A DNA stretch of 8,851 bases from Candidatus Fermentibacterota bacterium (GTDB taxonomy: Bacteria; JAFGKV01): NCBI GenBank assembly GCA_030620115.1, contig JAUXFG010000158.1, positions 1 through 8,851 on the forward strand. The letters run 5' to 3'. Both the position numbers and the translations under genes were made by a program. Below, piece after piece: positions 258 to 8,851 of the stretch. The notes beneath the pieces were generated by a model. That model did no database searches and was not told the origin of the DNA. It was given only the letters and a program-made list of their open reading frames with translations. Within the stretch, counting starts at the first letter, position 1, and each line of letters opens with the position of its first letter.

Positions 258-1880
258 CTAAAATCCTTGCTGGAGCGCCATGTGGATCCGTCCATCACGG
301 AGATCCTTTCCTTCAGGGATACCGTATTCTACACTGAGGGCGCCTATTGCCGTCTGGGCACGCAGCCCGATACCCATGCCTAGAGGCCATTCCCAGGCGT
401 GATCGTCCTCATAGACCCCGACATCAAAGAAGGCGAACAGGGTACTGCCACGATCCACTAGGAATCTATATTCAGTGTTGAGCCACCCGATGGTTCGTGA
501 ACGGAACTGGCGTTCCCGATACCCCCGCAAAGAGGTGGCTCCTCCAAGGGGAAACTGATCAGGGATGGGGATCTCATCTTCTTCACTGACTACCTGGCGC
601 CATGCCAATCGAAAACCCAGCGAGTGGCTGCCGTGGAGGTGAACATGCCTGCGCCTATCGATCTCCATTCGTACACTCGGCACCTTGGTTTCCTCTTCGA
701 GGTCTTTTCGCTGCTCGTAGCCGACTCTGAGACGCACCCAGTGGCCACCGCGCCACACGCCAATCTGTTGCTCGGCATCCCAGACAAGCTCTCCCCAGCC
801 TTCGCTGCTTCTCGTCGACATGACAAACTTCTGATGCTCCCCAGGGATGACGCGACGAGTGCTGTACCCGAGACTGCCTCGTACACCAGGCCCGAGACTC
901 CATGCCAGGGCAACAGCCCCCTTCCGTTCTACCCACAGCGTATCCTCCACCGCCTGAAGTACCTCGAGTTCAAGACTCGGGGGCAGTCCCAGCAGCCACG
1001 GTTCCCGGTACCGGATCAGGAGATCGCTCCGGCCATCCTCAGTGCCCTCCCAAGAGAAGGCCGCCTCCCTAGCCGTTCCTGCGATATTCTTCAAGCCCAC
1101 CTGAAGACTTCCGGTAAGGGTTCCTTCTCTGGAGATCCCCACGGCCCCCATGGCGGAATTGAACGTCCGCTCTTTGAGATGAAACTCCACCACAAGACGA
1201 TCCGATGAACTCCCTGCCCTGAGACGAGGGAGGCCGACTATCTCGTAGTAGCCTGTACGGATAAGACGGCTGTGAGCTGCATCAAGCCGTGCCTGATTAT
1301 ATATCATTCCAGGCGAAATTCCTGCGATTCGTGCGATAATACGACTCTTCGTCTTCACCGTCTCTGGTGCAGCGACCCTTTCGATAATCGTCTTGGGACC
1401 TTCCCGTACGGCAACCCGCATGCGCAACAAAGCCGTCGCGCTGTCCACCGTGGCATGGCGCACGGTGAAGGAAGCAAATGGATGCCCATTGTTCTCATAC
1501 CATAAAAGAAGATGATCCATCGCCTTGTGGAACGCCGACCCATCCCAGAACTCTCCCTCAAGATCTCTTATGGGGAACAAGGCAGGTGTTTCCGGATCAG
1601 CCCTCATACCATCGATGACCAGTCGCCCTAGCTGGTAGCGTCTTCCAGGGATCAAGGTCAGAACTGGATTGGTCTCCTGACACGTGGTCTCCACCTTGGC
1701 CTCGAAATACCCTTGTGCACCAGCTTCAACCAGGAGCTGTTCCATAACCCAAGCCTCGCGCCCCATGGAAAGGCTTTCAGGGTAAGCAGTCGCCAGCTCT
1801 TGCGTTAGGTCCATAGGCAAGATTCCCGCGAGATCCCATGTGGAGAGCAACAGGAGCCAGGCAAGGGTCATGGCGCTCAT
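258..1880 (-). CDS. Omp85-family outer-membrane protein (BamA/TamA-like, POTRA + barrel)
   Basis: This 540-residue protein has the layout of a short Omp85 protein, a family that inserts or translocates proteins at the outer membrane. A hydrophobic leader (about residues 4-20) is followed by POTRA-like segments at roughly 36-80 (partial), 80-160 and 164-238. The last two show the beta-alpha-alpha-beta pattern, for example the Y-E-N-N-G-H-P-F helix end and R-L-I-R-T-G-Y-Y. Residues 240-540 alternate as beta-strands. The Omp85 signature lies at 446-454 (GGATSLRGY, with the invariant Arg at 452), then LNTEYRF and FFDVGV, and the chain ends in Phe, a typical barrel C-terminus. The leader has no Lys or Arg before its hydrophobic core, which is unusual. 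The start ATG overlaps the upstream stop as TGATG with no clear Shine-Dalgarno, implying coupling to the giant barrel gene. It is much shorter than BamA (about 800 residues) and nearer TamA in size. The Omp85 assignment is firm; substrate and subfamily are unknown. Confidence 0.92.
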   Translation of the reverse strand: MSAMTLAWLLLLSTWDLAGILPMDLTQELATAYPESLSMGREAWVMEQLLVEAGAQGYFEAKVETTCQETNPVLTLIPGRRYQLGRLVIDGMRADPETPALFPIRDLEGEFWDGSAFHKAMDHLLLWYENNGHPFASFTVRHATVDSATALLRMRVAVREGPKTIIERVAAPETVKTKSRIIARIAGISPGMIYNQARLDAAHSRLIRTGYYEIVGLPRLRAGSSSDRLVVEFHLKERTFNSAMGAVGISREGTLTGSLQVGLKNIAGTAREAAFSWEGTEDGRSDLLIRYREPWLLGLPPSLELEVLQAVEDTLWVERKGAVALAWSLGPGVRGSLGYSTRRVIPGEHQKFVMSTRSSEGWGELVWDAEQQIGVWRGGHWVRLRVGYEQRKDLEEETKVPSVRMEIDRRRHVHLHGSHSLGFRLAWRQVVSEEDEIPIPDQFPLGGATSLRGYRERQFRSRTIGWLNTEYRFLVDRGSTLFAFFDVGVYEDDHAWEWPLGMGIGLRAQTAIGALSVEYGIPEGKDLRDGRIHMALQQGF

Positions 1881-1882
1881 CA
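1878..1882 (-). promoter_or_regulatory. TGATG stop/start overlap (translational coupling)
   Basis: On the minus strand the TGA stop of the giant barrel gene (1882-1880) shares its A with the ATG of the Omp85 gene (1880-1878). No good Shine-Dalgarno sits close upstream. Termination-reinitiation is the likely way the Omp85 gene is translated, which would tie its output to that of the giant protein. Confidence 0.8.
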
Positions 1883-4800
1883 GAAGTAGGCGATCAATTC
1901 CATCTTCCCTTCGAAAAGACGGCTTTGGGAAGGGCTTGATCCATAAGAGAAGTCCAGCCGCAACGTGAGTTTTTCCTGCAACTGGTAGTCACCCGTTATG
2001 TTGATCTTCCTTGTAGTGCCTTCTTGATCAGAGCGTTGATACAGACTTGCCATTTGAGCCCAAGGGCCATCCACGCTCAGCCTGGAGAGCATCGCTTTGA
2101 TGGTCATCCTTCCCCGCCCCGGAACGGTCCAGCGAACGCCTGAATTTGCCTCGAACTCACGAAGCGTCGCCTTTCTTGATTCTTGTGTTCCCTGCACTTG
2201 TTCGGCTGTCTCCTCCGAGAAAGTGCCGCCGGCCAGTAGCTGGAGATGCCGAGACAACGGTGTGGTGATCGATGGTGTGATACCCTTCCTTTTCGATCTA
2301 TTGCAGAGGCCGGCGGGTGCCTCGTCCTCCGATTCGTGGAACTCGTCCCGCACTTCGTCGGCTTCATAGAGCGCGACATCAAGCCTCCCCGTCAGGAAAA
2401 ATGGCGTGCGAACGCGCAACGTGGTCCGTTCTCTCCTTGTATGGAGCCGTCTTGTCAGACGCCTATGGTCCTCATCGTTGGAGAATAGCCATTGAATGCC
2501 CACCTTGACGCCGGTGCCGGGAGGGGTCACTTCGAAACGTTGTTCGATATGGTACTTCTTCCGCACAGTGGTGGAATCATTGGCAAAGGCCTCCGGACGA
2601 AGGAGATAGAACTGGCGCAGCTTGTCGGTGGTACTGCTGGCCTGTATCCGGGCTGACGTCTCGCTGGACAAAAGGCGCCTCCAATAGGGCCCGGACGAAC
2701 CTCCCGGGCGCAAGCGAACCGAAGCAGTACCTTCTACCATCGCCACGCGCTCCGCTCCGCCGGCGGGAACCAGGATCTTCTTGTGCGTACCTGCATCGGG
2801 TCCCACCCAGTGTCCTAGTGAATCATACTCCCCCACATTGGTCTCGAACTCCTCTTCAGGCACCAGCTCTTCCACCATGATCTCCGCTTCTCTCCCGCTG
2901 GCCTTGTAGGTCATCTCGAGATGGGGGCCTCCTTTCACAGGGGCAGCAGTGAGACGGACGGCCCCCACGGTGTTCCGCACGTCGTCTCCTGCAGAGGATG
3001 GTTGCGCAAGAAGAAATTCCTCGGTATAGCTGGTGGTGGTATGTGTGATGTCCGCCTTGGCCTTGAGCTCTGTCCCCATTGTCACGGCGAGATCCATTTC
3101 GTACCGTGCCCCGTGTTGGCTCGTGAGCCACTCCTCCTGCTCCCGAACAAATTCCCGCATGGTTCGTCTGCCTGCCATAAGCCGGATCAGATTTCGCGCC
3201 GAGCGCCCCACTCTGAAGCCATAGCCAACATCCATGTGACCTTTTCCGGAGGACACAGAAGGCTGCGTGTCCGGCATGTGGGAGATCTCTTCTCCCTTCC
3301 ACCGGAAAACGGGACCCAGCAGGCCCTCTTCACGAGAGAGGAAACCATCCGTCCACCATCGCGTATTGCCGCCTCCTGTGCGCGCTGAACGGTTGAACCG
3401 CCCCGACAGCCGGAAGCCGGCGGGAGCCACAATTCTGCCAGAGATCAAGGCTCGCCGATCCACCGTACCACTGTGACGGAGTTCGGCCAATGACATGGCG
3501 ACATTTCCTCCCGAGGAACTGCCCAGCATCATCTGAAGCTGCGTCTCACTTTGCGCTTCACTCTCTTCGCTAGGCGAATTCCATCCTCGCGCCCAATCTA
3601 CCGGCCGGGCTCTGCCTGGTGTGGCAAAGCCGGCTTCCTGTCCCCTCCAAATCAAATTGGCACGCCACGCCGGGAGGAATGTCTTCTCCGATCCGGAGGC
3701 CGTGAGATGAGCCTCCAAAGCGGCGGCATCATTGTCTTCATCATCTCGATCCGAGAGTGTATTCTTATCCTTCCTCGCCATGGCGCCTTCTACCGAAAGG
3801 CCAAGATGTTCCATCTCACCTATATCGAGCCCCACCACCGCCGTGGTGAGAGAATGTGGTATGGGAATTGACCTGCGGACAGTATAGTCCCCATGGCCCG
3901 GGCCCACATAGCGCCAGGTATCACTGGTTTCTCGAACATAGGAACCCCCACCTGATCGGTAGAATGTCGCCGTGAATGCTCCCCCCCACGACATCACGCC
4001 CAGATCAGAACCATCCATCATGCTTGTTTCACGCACCCTCGCTTCATGCAACGATCCCCCAGGAAAAAGAATGACCTCGCGTTTCATGACATAGTCGCCC
4101 ACTCCCGTACTCTCGGGAAGTGCCAAAAAATCCCCACCATTTGGCCCATAGTACTCGAACAGATCACCAACTGCCCGATACTCGCCGTGGCCGTCCCCCA
4201 CAGGGGAGAAACTTGCGGTCCACGTCCCCGATTCATGCGGGATGAGAAAGACAACATGGAGTGTGTCATACTGCCCCTCTCCTGGGCCTACATACGTAAA
4301 GGAAACCAACGAGGAGGATTCTTCGTCATCCCCTGCCTCGGCCAATGCCTGACGCTCTGTTTCGCTGAGAGTCCATTCGAGCGGGTGACTGGCATCGTCG
4401 GCCTCACGGAAGAGTCCGGCTCTCACGGTCACTGCGTCGGAAAGTGGTCCCGTGGTGGTAGTGATATAGACCGTCCTTCGATAGTTTTCCCTTGTATACT
4501 GGAAATCCACCGAGATTCGCGATTGCGCGGTGATGAGATTGCGTTCCGTGAATGTCAGTGCGCCGGTGGTGTAGTCTATGATGTAGTCGCGATCACTTCC
4601 CCTGCCGACTGCTCTCCCATCCAACCACACCCGCTCCGTTCCCGCCAACACCACCACCATGCCGCCAGCCCGTCCCAACTGATCTCCCAGGTAGTAAGGA
4701 CCCTGCTTCCCCTCTGTTCCTTCAAACTCCACAGAGGAAAACTCACCTTTCGTGGATGCGGCGGCGAACAGCGTTCTCCACGATCCCTGAGAAATGCTGC

Positions 4801-5536
4801 CCAAGATGCCCTGCATCTTCCTCTCGAGGTTGAGGTATTGGAAGCCACGTGTGCGGATAAAACAATCCCCAATGCTGACCTCATTTTCCTTTCTGCGAAG
4901 CTCGATCACCACCTTATCCAGCTCCTTCAATTCAGCGGTGGTCCCTTCGGGCTGAATGGGCGAATTCTCATCAGAAAGGCTCGCCACCACCTCCACATCA
5001 CCCGCCAAGGTTCCATGGAGCTGCACATTGAGAGACTGATCCAGACTGGGATCCTTGCCGGCGCCAAATCGTATGCCAATGGTCTTGCTTCCCGCGACAA
5101 ACAGGCTCCCCTCGGTGGAGAGATCGACCTGATGGGCCACGGGAGAGGATATCTTCCTTCCTGCCGACATCACCTCCTGTCCTGGGACAGGAGCGACGCG
5201 GTGAAAAAACACACGAGGAATGCCAAGCGGGAGATAGCGGTACTTGATGAGAAGGAGCGAGTCAGCAATGACACTGGGCGGCAAATGGATCACCGAATTG
5301 AACAAATCCACCCGGTATCCACCCGATCCCTCCCCCAAGGACACAGAGCCGGCGCGGACCAGAAATGATCCGGGGATCAGAAAGGAGTCAGCTAATTGAA
5401 GACTGGCGGGCTGCGGCGGTGCAAGATGGAGCGTACGGCGAATCCCAGGCGCCGCCCCTGCCGATGACGCCAGGAGAAGCACCGCAAAGATGTATGCCGG
5501 GCTACGAACGCTCCTCCATAATCCTGAGACAAACAA
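1880..5536 (-). CDS. Giant secreted protein, probable large outer-membrane beta-barrel, function unknown
   Basis: This 1218-residue protein is of no characterised family I can name. A signal peptide is clear: basic n-region, hydrophobic core at 15-23 and an SAGA/AP cleavage site near residue 28. Residues 167-224 form a compact block with LSDENSPIQPEGTT and ELDKVVIEL, ending in a short IGD strand. Residues 302-347 contain a WLDGRAVGRGSD - YIIDYTTGALTFT - RISVDFQY pattern, typical of beta-sandwich repeats in surface proteins. Residues 415-555 hold several degenerate VGxGxGDY motifs. From about 560 to the end the chain is dominated by alternating short amphipathic strands with charged or Gly-rich loops, and it finishes in Tyr-Phe as outer-membrane barrels do. 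I recall similar large uncharacterised proteins in FCB-group and candidate-phylum genomes, some compared to the SprA translocon, but cannot confirm homology. The start is TTG with AAGGA nine bases upstream. The 5' end overlaps the propeller gene by 35 bp and the 3' end is coupled to the Omp85 gene. Confidence 0.85.
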   Translation of the reverse strand: MFVSGLWRSVRSPAYIFAVLLLASSAGAAPGIRRTLHLAPPQPASLQLADSFLIPGSFLVRAGSVSLGEGSGGYRVDLFNSVIHLPPSVIADSLLLIKYRYLPLGIPRVFFHRVAPVPGQEVMSAGRKISSPVAHQVDLSTEGSLFVAGSKTIGIRFGAGKDPSLDQSLNVQLHGTLAGDVEVVASLSDENSPIQPEGTTAELKELDKVVIELRRKENEVSIGDCFIRTRGFQYLNLERKMQGILGSISQGSWRTLFAAASTKGEFSSVEFEGTEGKQGPYYLGDQLGRAGGMVVVLAGTERVWLDGRAVGRGSDRDYIIDYTTGALTFTERNLITAQSRISVDFQYTRENYRRTVYITTTTGPLSDAVTVRAGLFREADDASHPLEWTLSETERQALAEAGDDEESSSLVSFTYVGPGEGQYDTLHVVFLIPHESGTWTASFSPVGDGHGEYRAVGDLFEYYGPNGGDFLALPESTGVGDYVMKREVILFPGGSLHEARVRETSMMDGSDLGVMSWGGAFTATFYRSGGGSYVRETSDTWRYVGPGHGDYTVRRSIPIPHSLTTAVVGLDIGEMEHLGLSVEGAMARKDKNTLSDRDDEDNDAAALEAHLTASGSEKTFLPAWRANLIWRGQEAGFATPGRARPVDWARGWNSPSEESEAQSETQLQMMLGSSSGGNVAMSLAELRHSGTVDRRALISGRIVAPAGFRLSGRFNRSARTGGGNTRWWTDGFLSREEGLLGPVFRWKGEEISHMPDTQPSVSSGKGHMDVGYGFRVGRSARNLIRLMAGRRTMREFVREQEEWLTSQHGARYEMDLAVTMGTELKAKADITHTTTSYTEEFLLAQPSSAGDDVRNTVGAVRLTAAPVKGGPHLEMTYKASGREAEIMVEELVPEEEFETNVGEYDSLGHWVGPDAGTHKKILVPAGGAERVAMVEGTASVRLRPGGSSGPYWRRLLSSETSARIQASSTTDKLRQFYLLRPEAFANDSTTVRKKYHIEQRFEVTPPGTGVKVGIQWLFSNDEDHRRLTRRLHTRRERTTLRVRTPFFLTGRLDVALYEADEVRDEFHESEDEAPAGLCNRSKRKGITPSITTPLSRHLQLLAGGTFSEETAEQVQGTQESRKATLREFEANSGVRWTVPGRGRMTIKAMLSRLSVDGPWAQMASLYQRSDQEGTTRKINITGDYQLQEKLTLRLDFSYGSSPSQSRLFEGKMELIAYF
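3872..4294 (-). repeat. Protein-level degenerate repeat: VGxGxGDY motifs in the giant protein
   Basis: Residues 415-423 (YVGPGEGQY), 445-453 (PVGDGHGEY), 463-470 (YGPNGGDF), 476-482 (STGVGDY) and 543-551 (YVGPGHGDY) share one Gly-rich turn ending in Asp/Glu plus an aromatic residue. A weaker relative (HWVGPDAG) appears near 909. The spacing is irregular, about 12 to 65 residues, so this is an old diverged series and not a recent DNA duplication. Confidence 0.65.
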
Positions 5537-6530
5537 TATGACAATTCCTTGGATCAGCCAAAAAAAGCAGAACTCCCTCGTCCTTTTTGGAGGACTCCAT
5601 TGGCTCCCAGAAACATATATCCGACGCCGCGGAAAAAACCGACTCCGAGAGGTGCTCCTTGACCCTGGTCATGCTCCCCTCCGTTGCGTTGAGGATCACC
5701 ACATCAGCTTCCTTCTCGTCAATAATGGCGAGCATTCCACCTGGGCCCACATCGAGCCTGAATGGTACGATATCCCATGTATCCACGGTGAAAACCGTTC
5801 CCACTCGATCCACATGGATTATCGAGCCGCTGGAGGAATCGCAGATGTACAGAAGAGAACCCTTGCATGCGAGATCCGTGGGTTGGACTGCGTTCCCCGC
5901 TCCATATTCATCGGCCGCAAGGAATGGGCTTAATGCATCGAACGTATCGATCGTCTCGATCACCCCGGCGCCCGCGTCGGCCACGTAGAGAGGTCCGCTC
6001 TGGGCAGCCACCAGTGCCGATGGTCTCCATAACTCGCCCTCCTCGTCTTCAGGGGCACGCCGTATCTCCCGAACACCAAGCCCGGATCGTGTGATCTTCA
6101 GGACTCGACTGCCGTCGATGTCCGCCACATAGACGAACAGACCGCCAGGATCACAGATTGCGGTACGATCGGTGAATTCGCATGCTCCTTGGCCTGTTCC
6201 CCCAAACGATCTGACATGATCACCCTCAGGCGAGAAGAGGTGGATTCGCGGTTCTTCGCCGTCAGTGACCCAAAGACTCCCTTCTCGTGACACTGCCAAG
6301 CTCTGAGGTGACGAGAGGAGCTCCCTTCCGCCCACGATTCTCTCGACCTCGATGCGCACTCCCCCACCCGCCCAGACCACAAGAACCAACGAACAGAGGA
6401 ATCCCCACGCAGCAATCCAGCATTTGGGCAATCCCGCATTTCCACATTTCCCCACTTCCCCACTCCGTCCTTCATCTCTTTCTCGTAGATTCCAGATTAC
6501 AGATTGCCAGATTCCAAATTCCTCAAGCAT
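5502..6530 (-). CDS. Secreted six-bladed NHL-type beta-propeller protein
   Basis: The ORF is 342 codons; the reliable protein begins further in. Residues 37-54 form a hydrophobic signal segment with a likely VWA/G cleavage site near 54, so the product is probably exported; no lipobox Cys is evident. Six propeller blades follow at about 74-109, 119-156, 169-205, 216-251, 255-293 and 300-338. Blades 1 and 2 have the classic pattern (SLAVSREGSLWVTD...IHLFSPEG, then a GGTGQG linker). Residues 1-36 are encoded partly by a repeat also present in non-coding DNA at 6752-6802, and read as Trp/Gly-rich filler. Better starts are GTG at 6455 (GGAG seven bases upstream) or TTG at 6431; the ATG at 6530 has GGGAG nine bases upstream. 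The gene overlaps the giant barrel gene by 35 bp. NHL propellers usually bind proteins or glycans, so a binding partner of the barrel pair is plausible but unproven. Confidence 0.85.
   Translation of the reverse strand: MLEEFGIWQSVIWNLRERDEGRSGEVGKCGNAGLPKCWIAAWGFLCSLVLVVWAGGGVRIEVERIVGGRELLSSPQSLAVSREGSLWVTDGEEPRIHLFSPEGDHVRSFGGTGQGACEFTDRTAICDPGGLFVYVADIDGSRVLKITRSGLGVREIRRAPEDEEGELWRPSALVAAQSGPLYVADAGAGVIETIDTFDALSPFLAADEYGAGNAVQPTDLACKGSLLYICDSSSGSIIHVDRVGTVFTVDTWDIVPFRLDVGPGGMLAIIDEKEADVVILNATEGSMTRVKEHLSESVFSAASDICFWEPMESSKKDEGVLLFLADPRNCHIVCLRIMEERS
5534..5550 (-). promoter_or_regulatory. Ribosome binding site and TTG start of the giant barrel gene
   Basis: On the minus strand AAGGA (5550-5546) stands nine bases before a TTG codon (5536-5534). 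No ATG or GTG lies in frame close enough to keep the signal peptide intact, so TTG is the best start. The site lies inside the last codons of the propeller gene, consistent with one transcript. Confidence 0.65.
6463..6513. repeat. 51-bp direct repeat, copy 1 (inside the 5' end of the propeller ORF)
   Basis: This stretch matches 6752-6802 at 49 of 51 positions, with a perfect 33-bp core (6481-6513 = 6770-6802) built from CAGATT-type short units. It encodes about residues 6-23 of the longest propeller ORF, which argues that those residues are not ancestral protein sequence. Confidence 0.9.
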
Positions 6531-6642: not shown

Positions 6643-6688
6643 TCGAGCATGAAGGGCCATGACGGAGCATGGCCCTTCATCATCCCCA
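6643..6688. repeat. 46-bp hairpin repeat, copy A (perfect 13-bp stem)
   Basis: ATGAAGGGCCATG (6649-6661) and CATGGCCCTTCAT (6668-6680) are exact complements around a 6-base loop. The flanks TCGAGC and CATCCCCA are shared with copies B (8631-8676) and C (8812-8851). Copy A alone keeps a perfect stem. No T-tract follows on either strand. Confidence 0.9.
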
Positions 6689-6723: not shown

Positions 6724-6751
6724 CCCCCATTCCCCCATTCCAGCAATCCCC

Positions 6752-6802
6752 CTCCGTCCTTCATCTTCTTCTCGTAGATTCCAGATTACAGATTGCCAGA
6801 TT
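6752..6802. repeat. 51-bp direct repeat, copy 2 (intergenic, downstream of tonB)
   Basis: This is the partner of 6463-6513, 49 of 51 identical, ending 17 bp before the tonB stop. It is clearly non-coding, which makes it the reference for judging the copy inside the propeller ORF. It continues as further CAGATT units to about 6809. Confidence 0.9.
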
Positions 6803-6819
6803 ACAGATTCCCCCTCCCA

Positions 6820-7509
6820 TCACCGCAGTTCGAATCGGATGGTAACGACTCCCTCCGAAAGGGATGAGTCCCGTACCGCGGCGAATCGCCACTGGCGGAT
6901 CGCCCGCAATGCCGCATCCTCCAGAGAGTGATGTGCCTTTTGAATGACGATAGCCATCTGCACCGTGCCGTCAGGTACCACCAGGAGCCTGATCTTCACC
7001 TCTCCCCCTGCACTCATGTCCGGGGGGAAGACCGGCTGGATAAGATGCACCAATTTCCTGGTAGAAAGAAGCCCCTCCACCTTTACCTGTACGTCGCTTT
7101 TGGGCTCGACACGTCCCTCTTCCGGTATTGGCACTGGGGCAAGACGATCAGCGGGAGATAGTGGGATTGATGGACGTGATGAATCAAAAAGCTGCGGCTT
7201 CAATGCCTCCAGGTCGAGACTCTCGCTTTCGGGGAGTTCTGGAATCGAGACAGGTGAAACATCATTGCCAGGCTGATCCAATGGGCCGGCCATCCTTCGT
7301 TCTGGGATGGTGGGAACCCGCGAATGGTCGGCAGCCTCATGATCCGGCGCTTCTTCAGGGCTTGTGAGCGCCGTACCAAGGAATTCCACTTCCATAGGAG
7401 GGGAGGTCATGGGTTCAACATTCACGTACAAGGTGGCCATCACGACGACCAGAAGGATATGAAGCAGTGTGGCCATTCCCGTTCCCACGGCCATTGGTCG
7501 CGACATCAT
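6820..7509 (-). CDS. tonB: TonB-family energy transducer
   Basis: From the ATG at 7509 the protein has 229 residues. An N-terminal membrane anchor (about residues 9-29) carries a His at 17, the position type conserved in the TonB transmembrane helix. A long charged, moderately Pro-rich periplasmic linker follows (about 32-150). The C-terminal TonB domain (about 156-229) has PVFPPDM, the VKIRLLVVPDGTVQ strand pair, DAALRAIRQWRF and a final strand. TonB carries energy from ExbBD to outer-membrane transporters. The frame stays open to a possible start at 7590, which would put 27 residues ahead of the membrane anchor and overlap exbD by 68 bp. I prefer 7509 because AGGAG lies ten bases upstream. 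The gene sits directly after exbD, as expected. I see no TonB-dependent receptor plug in the window, so its client is unknown. Confidence 0.9.
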   Translation of the reverse strand: MMSRPMAVGTGMATLLHILLVVVMATLYVNVEPMTSPPMEVEFLGTALTSPEEAPDHEAADHSRVPTIPERRMAGPLDQPGNDVSPVSIPELPESESLDLEALKPQLFDSSRPSIPLSPADRLAPVPIPEEGRVEPKSDVQVKVEGLLSTRKLVHLIQPVFPPDMSAGGEVKIRLLVVPDGTVQMAIVIQKAHHSLEDAALRAIRQWRFAAVRDSSLSEGVVTIRFELR

Positions 7510-7525
7510 GATGGATACACTCCTA
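7507..7525 (-). promoter_or_regulatory. tonB ribosome binding site fused to the exbD stop codon
   Basis: The minus strand reads TAGGAG, where TAG (7525-7523) is the exbD stop and AGGAG (7524-7520) is the tonB Shine-Dalgarno, ten bases before ATG at 7509-7507. This compact join supports co-translation and decides the tonB start. Confidence 0.75.
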
Positions 7526-7939
7526 AGAGGACATCTCTCCGGGTTGAGATGCAATGAGGAGCCGCTGGTAGCCAACACGCCTTCCGGCATCCAATACCCG
7601 AACCACCCAGTGAAACTGACAGGTCTTGTCCGCGCGTATTATGAGGGATGGTCGCTCTTGTACGGGATCAAGCATTGCTCTCAATTCATCTTCCAAGCGT
7701 TCTGGCGACACGGGCCGCATTCCCACGAAGAGCTCGCCCTCGCTGGTCACGGTGACAATCACCCGATCATGCGATTCGGGTTCGGAAGTCCTGGTGCTGG
7801 GAAGATCGACCTTTATACCCGGCTGCACCACGAAGGATGACGAGAGGAGAAAGAATATCAGGAGGAGGAATATGATATCCGTCAGTGATATCGCCGAGAA
7901 AGAGGTGATCTTCTTCCTCGAAGGCTCAAAGAGTAACAT
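7523..7939 (-). CDS. exbD: ExbD/TolR-family proton-channel subunit
   Basis: The 138-residue length is normal for the family. A short cytoplasmic N-terminus is followed by a single membrane helix at about 17-37 (ISLTDIIFLLLIFFLLSSSF). It carries Asp21, the equivalent of the essential proton-binding Asp25 of E. coli ExbD. The periplasmic part opens with VVQPGIKVDLP, a family hallmark, and ends with the conserved IIRADKTCQFHWVVRVLDAGR strand-helix unit. ExbD works with ExbB as the inner-membrane proton channel that drives TonB, and the tonB gene immediately downstream favours ExbD over TolR. Its start overlaps the end of exbB by 14 bp. The upstream AGGGA is a modest ribosome site, so coupling to exbB is likely. 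Confidence 0.94.
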   Translation of the reverse strand: MLLFEPSRKKITSFSAISLTDIIFLLLIFFLLSSSFVVQPGIKVDLPSTRTSEPESHDRVIVTVTSEGELFVGMRPVSPERLEDELRAMLDPVQERPSLIIRADKTCQFHWVVRVLDAGRRVGYQRLLIASQPGEMSS

Positions 7940-8555
7940 AATCCCTACCCGGGGCGACGGACAGCTTGAGCAGCGTCAAGGAGGCCTTTCTCAACTGATG
8001 CGTAAGGGTCTCTATCTGAACGGCAAGCCAGTTGTGTCCCACCAAGGCGAAAATGCCAACCGTCAGCCCGGCGGCGGTTGTCACCAGTGCCTCCCAGATA
8101 CCGCCCGCCAACACACTGGCGTCGACTTGGCCGGAATGCGCCTGTACCTGCATGAAGGCTCTGATCATCCCTGTGACCGTACCGAGGAAGCCCACCATCG
8201 GCGCAGCCGCGGCCACCATGGAAAGCCATCCCAAACGTTTCTCGAGGCTATCCAGCTCAACCTGTCCCGCGAGCGAGACGCTCTCCCGCATGGCGTCGAC
8301 ATTACCCAGAACCTCCAGGCCCGCCAACAATACGCGACCCACAGCCCTCCGGCTGAGCTTGCATTGAACCTTGGCGCCCTCGATATCACCTCCGCCTGCA
8401 AGCTTCAATACGCCTGCGGCGGTCGGCTCTGTGCCGGCTCGCGCCCGCCGAATCACGATATACCTCTCAATAAGAACCGCCAAAGCTACCAGCGAGCCCG
8501 CGGCGAGGGCGATCATGAAGTAGCCACCCTTTGACATGACAGTGAGCAGATTCAA
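7926..8555 (-). CDS. exbB: ExbB/TolQ/MotA-family proton-channel subunit
   Basis: The 209-residue protein has the three-helix layout of the family: helix 1 at about 12-34, helix 2 at about 111-134 and helix 3 at about 153-178, with a cytoplasmic loop between 1 and 2. Helix 2 contains the signature APMVGFLGTVTGMIRAF; Thr126 matches the channel-lining Thr148 of E. coli ExbB. Helix 3 contains EALVTTAAGL, where Thr160 matches Thr181. Five ExbB subunits surround an ExbD dimer to pass protons. The start is TTG at 8555, chosen because a near-perfect GGAGGTGA lies just upstream; the in-frame ATG at 8537 has no such site. It is the first gene of the cluster. TolQ is the alternative name, but the neighbouring tonB and absence of tolA/tolB/pal here favour ExbB. 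Confidence 0.94.
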   Translation of the reverse strand: MNLLTVMSKGGYFMIALAAGSLVALAVLIERYIVIRRARAGTEPTAAGVLKLAGGGDIEGAKVQCKLSRRAVGRVLLAGLEVLGNVDAMRESVSLAGQVELDSLEKRLGWLSMVAAAAPMVGFLGTVTGMIRAFMQVQAHSGQVDASVLAGGIWEALVTTAAGLTVGIFALVGHNWLAVQIETLTHQLRKASLTLLKLSVAPGRDYVTL

Positions 8556-8630: not shown

Positions 8631-8676
8631 TCGAGCATCAACGGCCATGACGAAGCATGGCCCTCCATCATCCCCA
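8631..8676. repeat. 46-bp hairpin repeat, copy B (degenerate stem)
   Basis: This aligns with copy A (6643-6688) without gaps. The core GGCCATG...CATGGCC still pairs, but several outer pairs are lost. It lies about 75 bp upstream of the exbB start. Confidence 0.88.
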
Positions 8677-8811: not shown

Positions 8812-8851
8812 TCGAGCATCAACGGCCATGACGGAGCATGCCCCTCCATCA
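8812..8851. repeat. Hairpin repeat, copy C (cut by the window edge)
   Basis: This follows copies A and B through TCGAGCATCAACGGCCATG, ACGGAG and CATG, and runs into the window end before the expected TCCCCA tail. It has the same outer-stem losses as copy B plus one in the core, so it is closer to B than to A. Confidence 0.82.

Follow-up and report, generated by a model that had tools for sequence, protein, structure and literature searches.

Background

The insertion of outer-membrane barrels is mostly attributed to a single general machine, BAM. Its Omp85-superfamily protein BamA (TIGR03303) combines POTRA domains with an Omp85 barrel domain, TamA and TamL are accessory Omp85 proteins with three POTRA domains found beside BamA, and in FhaC/ShlB two-partner secretion an Omp85-superfamily gene is paired with the gene of one large exported protein. 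Type IX secretion (T9SS) is known mainly from Bacteroidota; SprA is its outer-membrane translocon, PorW/SprE is a lipoprotein of the system, GldL is its usual motor protein, and peptidase C25 is the family of PorU and gingipain. The SprA of F. johnsoniae is a 36-strand barrel that is capped on the outside and has a lateral opening where PorV docks (PMC10994853). The elaborate BAM of Bacteroidota accompanies complex barrels such as SprA (PMC12611786).

The DNA analyzed here, referred to as the window, is a stretch of 8,851 nucleotides from a Candidatus Fermentibacterota bacterium (GenBank assembly GCA_030620115.1, contig JAUXFG010000158.1). It contains a triad of genes encoding an NHL beta-propeller, a giant protein and an Omp85-superfamily protein. 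The triad is a conserved and apparently undescribed module, which may contribute in a so far unnoticed way to the transport of proteins to the surface of many T9SS bacteria. No description of it was found in the open-access papers searched on SprA paralogues and SprA-like proteins, on Omp85 proteins in T9SS and on T9SS outside Bacteroidota. The initial annotation of the window, made from the sequence, had likewise named no known system with this layout; that view stands as far as the layout goes, but one of its parts does have known kin, the giant being a distant homologue of SprA.

Gene layout

All three triad genes are on the minus strand, arranged head to tail. A 35-bp overlap joins NHL to giant and the shared letters TGATG join giant to Omp85, and the open reading frame coordinates thus bear out the overlaps first reported. 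Genes on this strand extend beyond the triad, with ExbB, ExbD and TonB genes upstream of the NHL gene (Table 1). The overlaps suggest that the three triad genes are read as one transcript. Judged by eye only, the NHL, giant and Omp85 proteins all have putative signal peptides. Both the giant (...ELIAYF) and the Omp85 protein (...LQQGF) end in the terminal phenylalanine that had been pointed out earlier, and the Pfam matches given below agree with the propeller and Omp85 identities initially assigned.

Table 1 Positions of genes and of giant-protein regions in the window
Feature	Positions	Strand	Basis
Omp85-superfamily protein, 540 aa	258-1880	minus	Pfam Omp85, POTRA
Giant protein, 1218 aa, TTG start	1880-5536	minus	63-sequence family, SprA profile match
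C-terminal end of giant, resembling a barrel insertion signal, LFEGKMELIAYF	1883-1918	minus	two alignments of giants (12 and 63 sequences)
Motif shared with SprA, second copy, giant residues 278-377 (QGPYxL...AGTERVWLDG..RGSDRDYIIDYTTGALTFT)	4406-4705	minus	hhalign, weak TIGR04189 match
Giant residues 141-350, region like the SprA N-terminus	4487-5116	minus	hhalign
Motif shared with SprA, first copy, giant residues 44-108, GSxxV-xxxG-L-xDYxxDxxxGxIxF	5213-5407	minus	hhalign
NHL beta-propeller protein, at most 342 aa (as listed)	5502-6530	minus	Pfam NHL
TonB-like protein	6820-7590	minus	Pfam TonB_C
ExbD-like protein	7523-7939	minus	Pfam ExbD
ExbB-like protein	7926-8555	minus	Pfam MotA_ExbB

The propeller was recognized by a Pfam NHL match (2.6e-6), and known NHL structures match it from residue 72 onward. 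The listed TonB gene and the listed NHL start are separated by 289 bp, and both ends of this gap carry a copy of a 64-bp direct repeat (92 % identity; positions 6459-6522 and 6748-6811). One copy covers most of the first 24 codons of the NHL open reading frame, which casts doubt on the listed start; the true start probably lies downstream of 6459.

The giant protein and its relation to SprA

The giant had no match in Pfam, including no passenger repeat, TPS domain or TonB receptor domain, and PDB and plasmid searches returned no relative; a scan of viral contigs gave two weak fragments. Its AlphaFold2 model, built from an alignment of 4 sequences, had a pLDDT of 29. The SprA/Sov model TIGR04189 matched the giant with 13.4 bits (E 0.008) in hmmscan and 14.8 bits in the genome search, below the curated cut-off of 200 bits, which places it outside the SprA family as that model defines it. 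Prompted by this weak direct match, a profile of 63 giants was compared with a profile of 20 SprA proteins using hhalign. Giant residues 278-377 aligned with SprA columns 612-703 (score 118, probability 97.2, E 3e-11), residues 141-350, the best conserved stretch of the giant family, aligned with SprA columns 172-448 (probability 94.9, 191 columns), and residues 44-108 matched the same SprA columns as residues 278-377 (probability 93.7). Controls with Omp85, NHL, PorV, peptidases, reversed SprA and column-shuffled SprA gave 29 or less.

Judged from these profiles, the giant and SprA have a common ancestry that is still detectable. The kinship is confined to the N-terminal third of the giant; the C-terminal two thirds, in which most barrel strands are expected, match SprA weakly and have no clear counterpart there. 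The two kinds of protein have in common the repeated DYxIDYxxGxIxF motif, the N-terminal region, their character as very large outer-membrane proteins and their occurrence in the same genomes, the window's genome itself encoding a separate SprA at another locus. They differ in length, the giant family (about 1100-1200 aa) being about half as long as SprA/Sov (2000-2400 aa), and in the pairing of the giant with Omp85 and NHL genes. Alignments of 12 and of 63 giants gave the C-terminal consensus HxGxAExRAFF, and 55 of the 63 homologues end in phenylalanine, as barrels typically do.

The linked Omp85 protein

The 540-aa protein belongs to the Omp85 superfamily, with matches to both Pfam PF01103 Omp85 (45.7 bits, cut-off 24, 8e-12) and PF07244 POTRA (28.1 bits, cut-off 21.3, 3.5e-6). 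It has a BamA-like POTRA region and an SLRGY motif of the loop-6 type, and the solved structures closest to it are BamA and POTRA proteins, with no FhaC among the solved-structure matches. AlphaFold2, given an alignment of 2 sequences, returned a model with a pLDDT of 31. The score against the BamA model TIGR03303 was 87.5 bits, below the cut-off of 297, so the protein falls outside the BamA family proper. The ShlB model PF03865 gave 19.4 bits (cut-off 22.7) for the window protein and 25.9 bits, just above the cut-off, for its homologue in a second genome of the phylum (G001); the Omp85 and BamA models both score the window protein far above ShlB.

A BamA-family protein was present in all 22 genomes tested, in 21 of them above the curated cut-off. 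A tree was built from 33 triad Omp85 proteins, 21 BamA proteins and 8 second-class Omp85 proteins of the same genomes. The triad proteins, that is, the window protein and 32 other giant-linked Omp85 proteins, formed one side of a branch with a support of 100/93, found in 99 % of bootstrap trees, and stood apart from BamA and from the second Omp85 class, in a tree that has several long branches and a homologue set gathered by iterated profiles in which a few distant members are uncertain.

BamA is the best family and structure match of the triad Omp85 proteins and has the same domain content. They are, however, shorter (455-644 aa), form a clade of their own and are linked to one client gene, and the window's genome encodes its own full-length BamA besides. 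TamA and TamL resemble them in length, in being accessory Omp85 proteins beside BamA and through weak profile matches, but no TamB neighbor was seen for the triad Omp85 and most of these proteins are without a lipobox. The FhaC/ShlB systems share the pairing of one Omp85-superfamily gene with the gene of one large protein; the triad Omp85, in contrast, is BamA-like, and its giant has the look of a barrel rather than of a passenger.

Conservation of the gene order

The giant and the Omp85 protein were both found in all three surveyed genomes of the window's phylum (G000, G001 and G002). The gene order in G001 is TPR protein, 475-residue protein, ExbB, ExbD, TonB, NHL, giant and Omp85; the locus in G002 is split between contigs and agrees with this order where it can be read. 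A scan of genome contigs gave only three relatives, labeled Candidatus Fermentibacteria and Candidatus Eisenbacteria, a number explained by the search patterns having come from close homologues. A giant homologue of Saprospira grandis is 33 % identical over 371 columns, and a profile that included it found the giant family across the bacterial domain, with a strong match in 76 of 386 genomes according to a reading of the match list by hand, in broad searches that scored few candidates per genome.

The neighborhood survey covered all open reading frames of 60 fetched neighborhoods with iterated profiles and comprised 63 giants from many bacterial families. An NHL gene lay directly upstream on the same strand of 39 of the 63 giants, an Omp85 gene directly downstream of 35, and both were in place for 28; these partner counts are lower bounds, because some contigs end near the giant. 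All giant neighborhoods together contained 44 NHL and 42 Omp85 matches, so that most of these matches are the direct neighbors of the giant. Most adjacent pairs overlap or are separated by 30 bp or less (31 of 35 for giant and Omp85, 32 of 39 for NHL and giant). The initial annotation had proposed checking whether the genes are rarely neighbors in relatives; at least one directly adjacent partner was found at 47 of the 63 loci, in 34 families, and the 28 full triads came from 22 families (family labels counted by hand). Together with the separate Omp85 clade, this adjacency upholds the suggested fixed coupling of a dedicated Omp85 protein to the giant, with the propeller as partner. No partner accompanied 14 giants despite long enough flanks, and a supported three-member clade among the partnerless giants consists of that of Saprospira and those of two genomes with canonical GldL.

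Association with type IX secretion

SprA was present in 75 of the 76 genomes with a strong giant match and in 73 of the 310 others, a co-occurrence that partly reflects shared ancestry and is inflated by it, the Fisher test ignoring ancestry. SprA, PorV and cargo-tail proteins all occur in the three genomes of the window's phylum, which on this combination possess T9SS; besides SprA, PorV and 42 cargo-tail matches were found in the genome of the window. As in T9SS gene clusters, PorV, a C25 peptidase and cargo-tail proteins adjoin the triad at some of the loci. At 18 of the 63 loci PorV lay no more than about 9 kb from the giant, and at the other 45 it was not found within that distance. In the loci that were checked with Pfam, a C25 peptidase and an M6 peptidase with Por_Secre_tail lie beside PorV, followed by DUF5683 and then by the triad; locus counts for C25 and M6 were not used, as their profiles cross-match through shared tails. 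The known neighbors of the triad within the window are ExbB, ExbD and TonB and are not T9SS genes.

Several further features of these genomes were observed. The NHL gene is often separated from the gene of the cargo-tail peptidase by two DUF5683-like genes in tandem (L106, L112, L113, L073 and others). The 997-residue TPR protein that opens the G001 cluster (L006, 16765-19758) matches PorW/SprE with 72 bits against a cut-off of 250, a match that is weak because of the TPR repeats. SprA was detectable in 148 of the 386 genomes, in 90 of them above the cut-off.

In the window and in G001 (L006, 13617-15629), the ExbB, ExbD and TonB genes lie directly upstream of the triad; this linkage was absent from the other 61 giant loci. 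TonB-ExbBD was considered as a core part of the module and rejected, its linkage being limited to the window's phylum. Six ExbD matches were found in the window's genome, the triad-adjacent ExbD among them. The GldL model TIGR03513 had no match at E 1 in the three genomes of the phylum, and canonical GldL exceeded its cut-off in 3 of the 386 genomes surveyed. Absence of GldL in the window's phylum says little, because nearly all other SprA-bearing genomes are also without it. The model may be too narrow, and the rarity of GldL in SprA genomes would mean either that the motor is very diverged or that many of them use another energy source. It is a guess that the upstream ExbB-ExbD-TonB genes supply energy in the window's lineage.

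Proposed role of the module and alternatives

Among the large outer-membrane barrels of the SprA family, the giant would be a compact one, and the linked Omp85 protein would be a BamA-derived assembly factor that folds and inserts it as its one client, a role suggested by the coupling of the genes and by the clade that these Omp85 proteins form. The NHL propeller would be exported and play an accessory part, possibly as a scaffold in the manner of BamB. After its insertion the giant would most likely provide a further protein-conducting pore, or a docking platform, for T9SS cargo carried by PorV-type proteins; the kinship with SprA and the neighborhood point to this, and the mechanism is modeled on the F. 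johnsoniae SprA structure (PMC10994853). We regard this account as a whole as having about an even chance of being right. An extended form of it, in which the module is a second, compact class of SprA-type translocon in many families, with a private BamA-derived insertase and propeller, and is powered by TonB-ExbB-ExbD in the window's lineage in place of GldL-GldM, seems doubtful.

Alternatively, the giant may be a T9SS-linked barrel that acts as a surface attachment or sorting platform like the PorU-PorV-PorZ complex, SprA translocating everything and the giant receiving or processing the cargo. Since 75 of the 76 giant genomes have SprA, they do not strictly require another translocon, and the C25 peptidase and PorV neighbors suit cargo handling, but the kinship of the giant is to the translocon SprA and not to known proteins of the attachment complex, and we see this reading as possible though not probable. 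The initial annotation had suggested a specialized insertion or two-partner translocation device. In two-partner secretion the Omp85 protein would export the giant, which would be a substrate that is secreted or displayed on the surface instead of a membrane barrel. One Omp85 gene beside one large protein gene does recall the TpsA-TpsB layout, and the window Omp85 has its weak, sub-threshold ShlB match; in the FhaB/FhaC sense the idea is nevertheless not borne out and has become improbable, since the Omp85 protein resembles BamA with no FhaC structure match, and the giant has a conserved barrel-type C-terminus, kinship with SprA and no passenger repeat or TPS domain known to Pfam.

The position of ExbB-ExbD-TonB directly upstream of the triad in the window and in G001 would suit a giant that is an energized channel for TonB-driven uptake or export. 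The linkage is missing at the other 61 loci, however, the genome has six ExbD matches, and Pfam finds no TonB receptor domain in the giant, which leaves this reading quite improbable. A chance neighborhood of ordinary envelope genes with no joint function is hardly credible: some giants, that of Saprospira included, are without such neighbors, but order and strand are the same in 28 full triads from 22 families and the Omp85 proteins form a single clade, so that the survey refutes this reading provided that the homologue sets are right.

If the preferred account of a compact SprA-family barrel with its own assembly factor is right, the BamA-related clade, tied genetically at 33 loci to one giant client, would clearly qualify as a candidate client-specific insertase, and the module would add an unrecognized SprA relative to type IX secretion. 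The data suggest the NHL-giant-Omp85 module as another solution for complex barrels than the elaborate BAM of Bacteroidota, and the partnerless giants of the Saprospira clade would fit the idea of two such alternatives.

Repeats in the window

An Rfam search of the window gave no RNA feature. Positions 1-209 hold an 88-bp unit in tandem, with two full copies and one partial copy (97 % identity). A 40-bp repeat (95 % identity) with CATGGCC-like palindromic halves lies at 8631-8670 and 8812-8851, and the sequence near 6650 resembles it in type.
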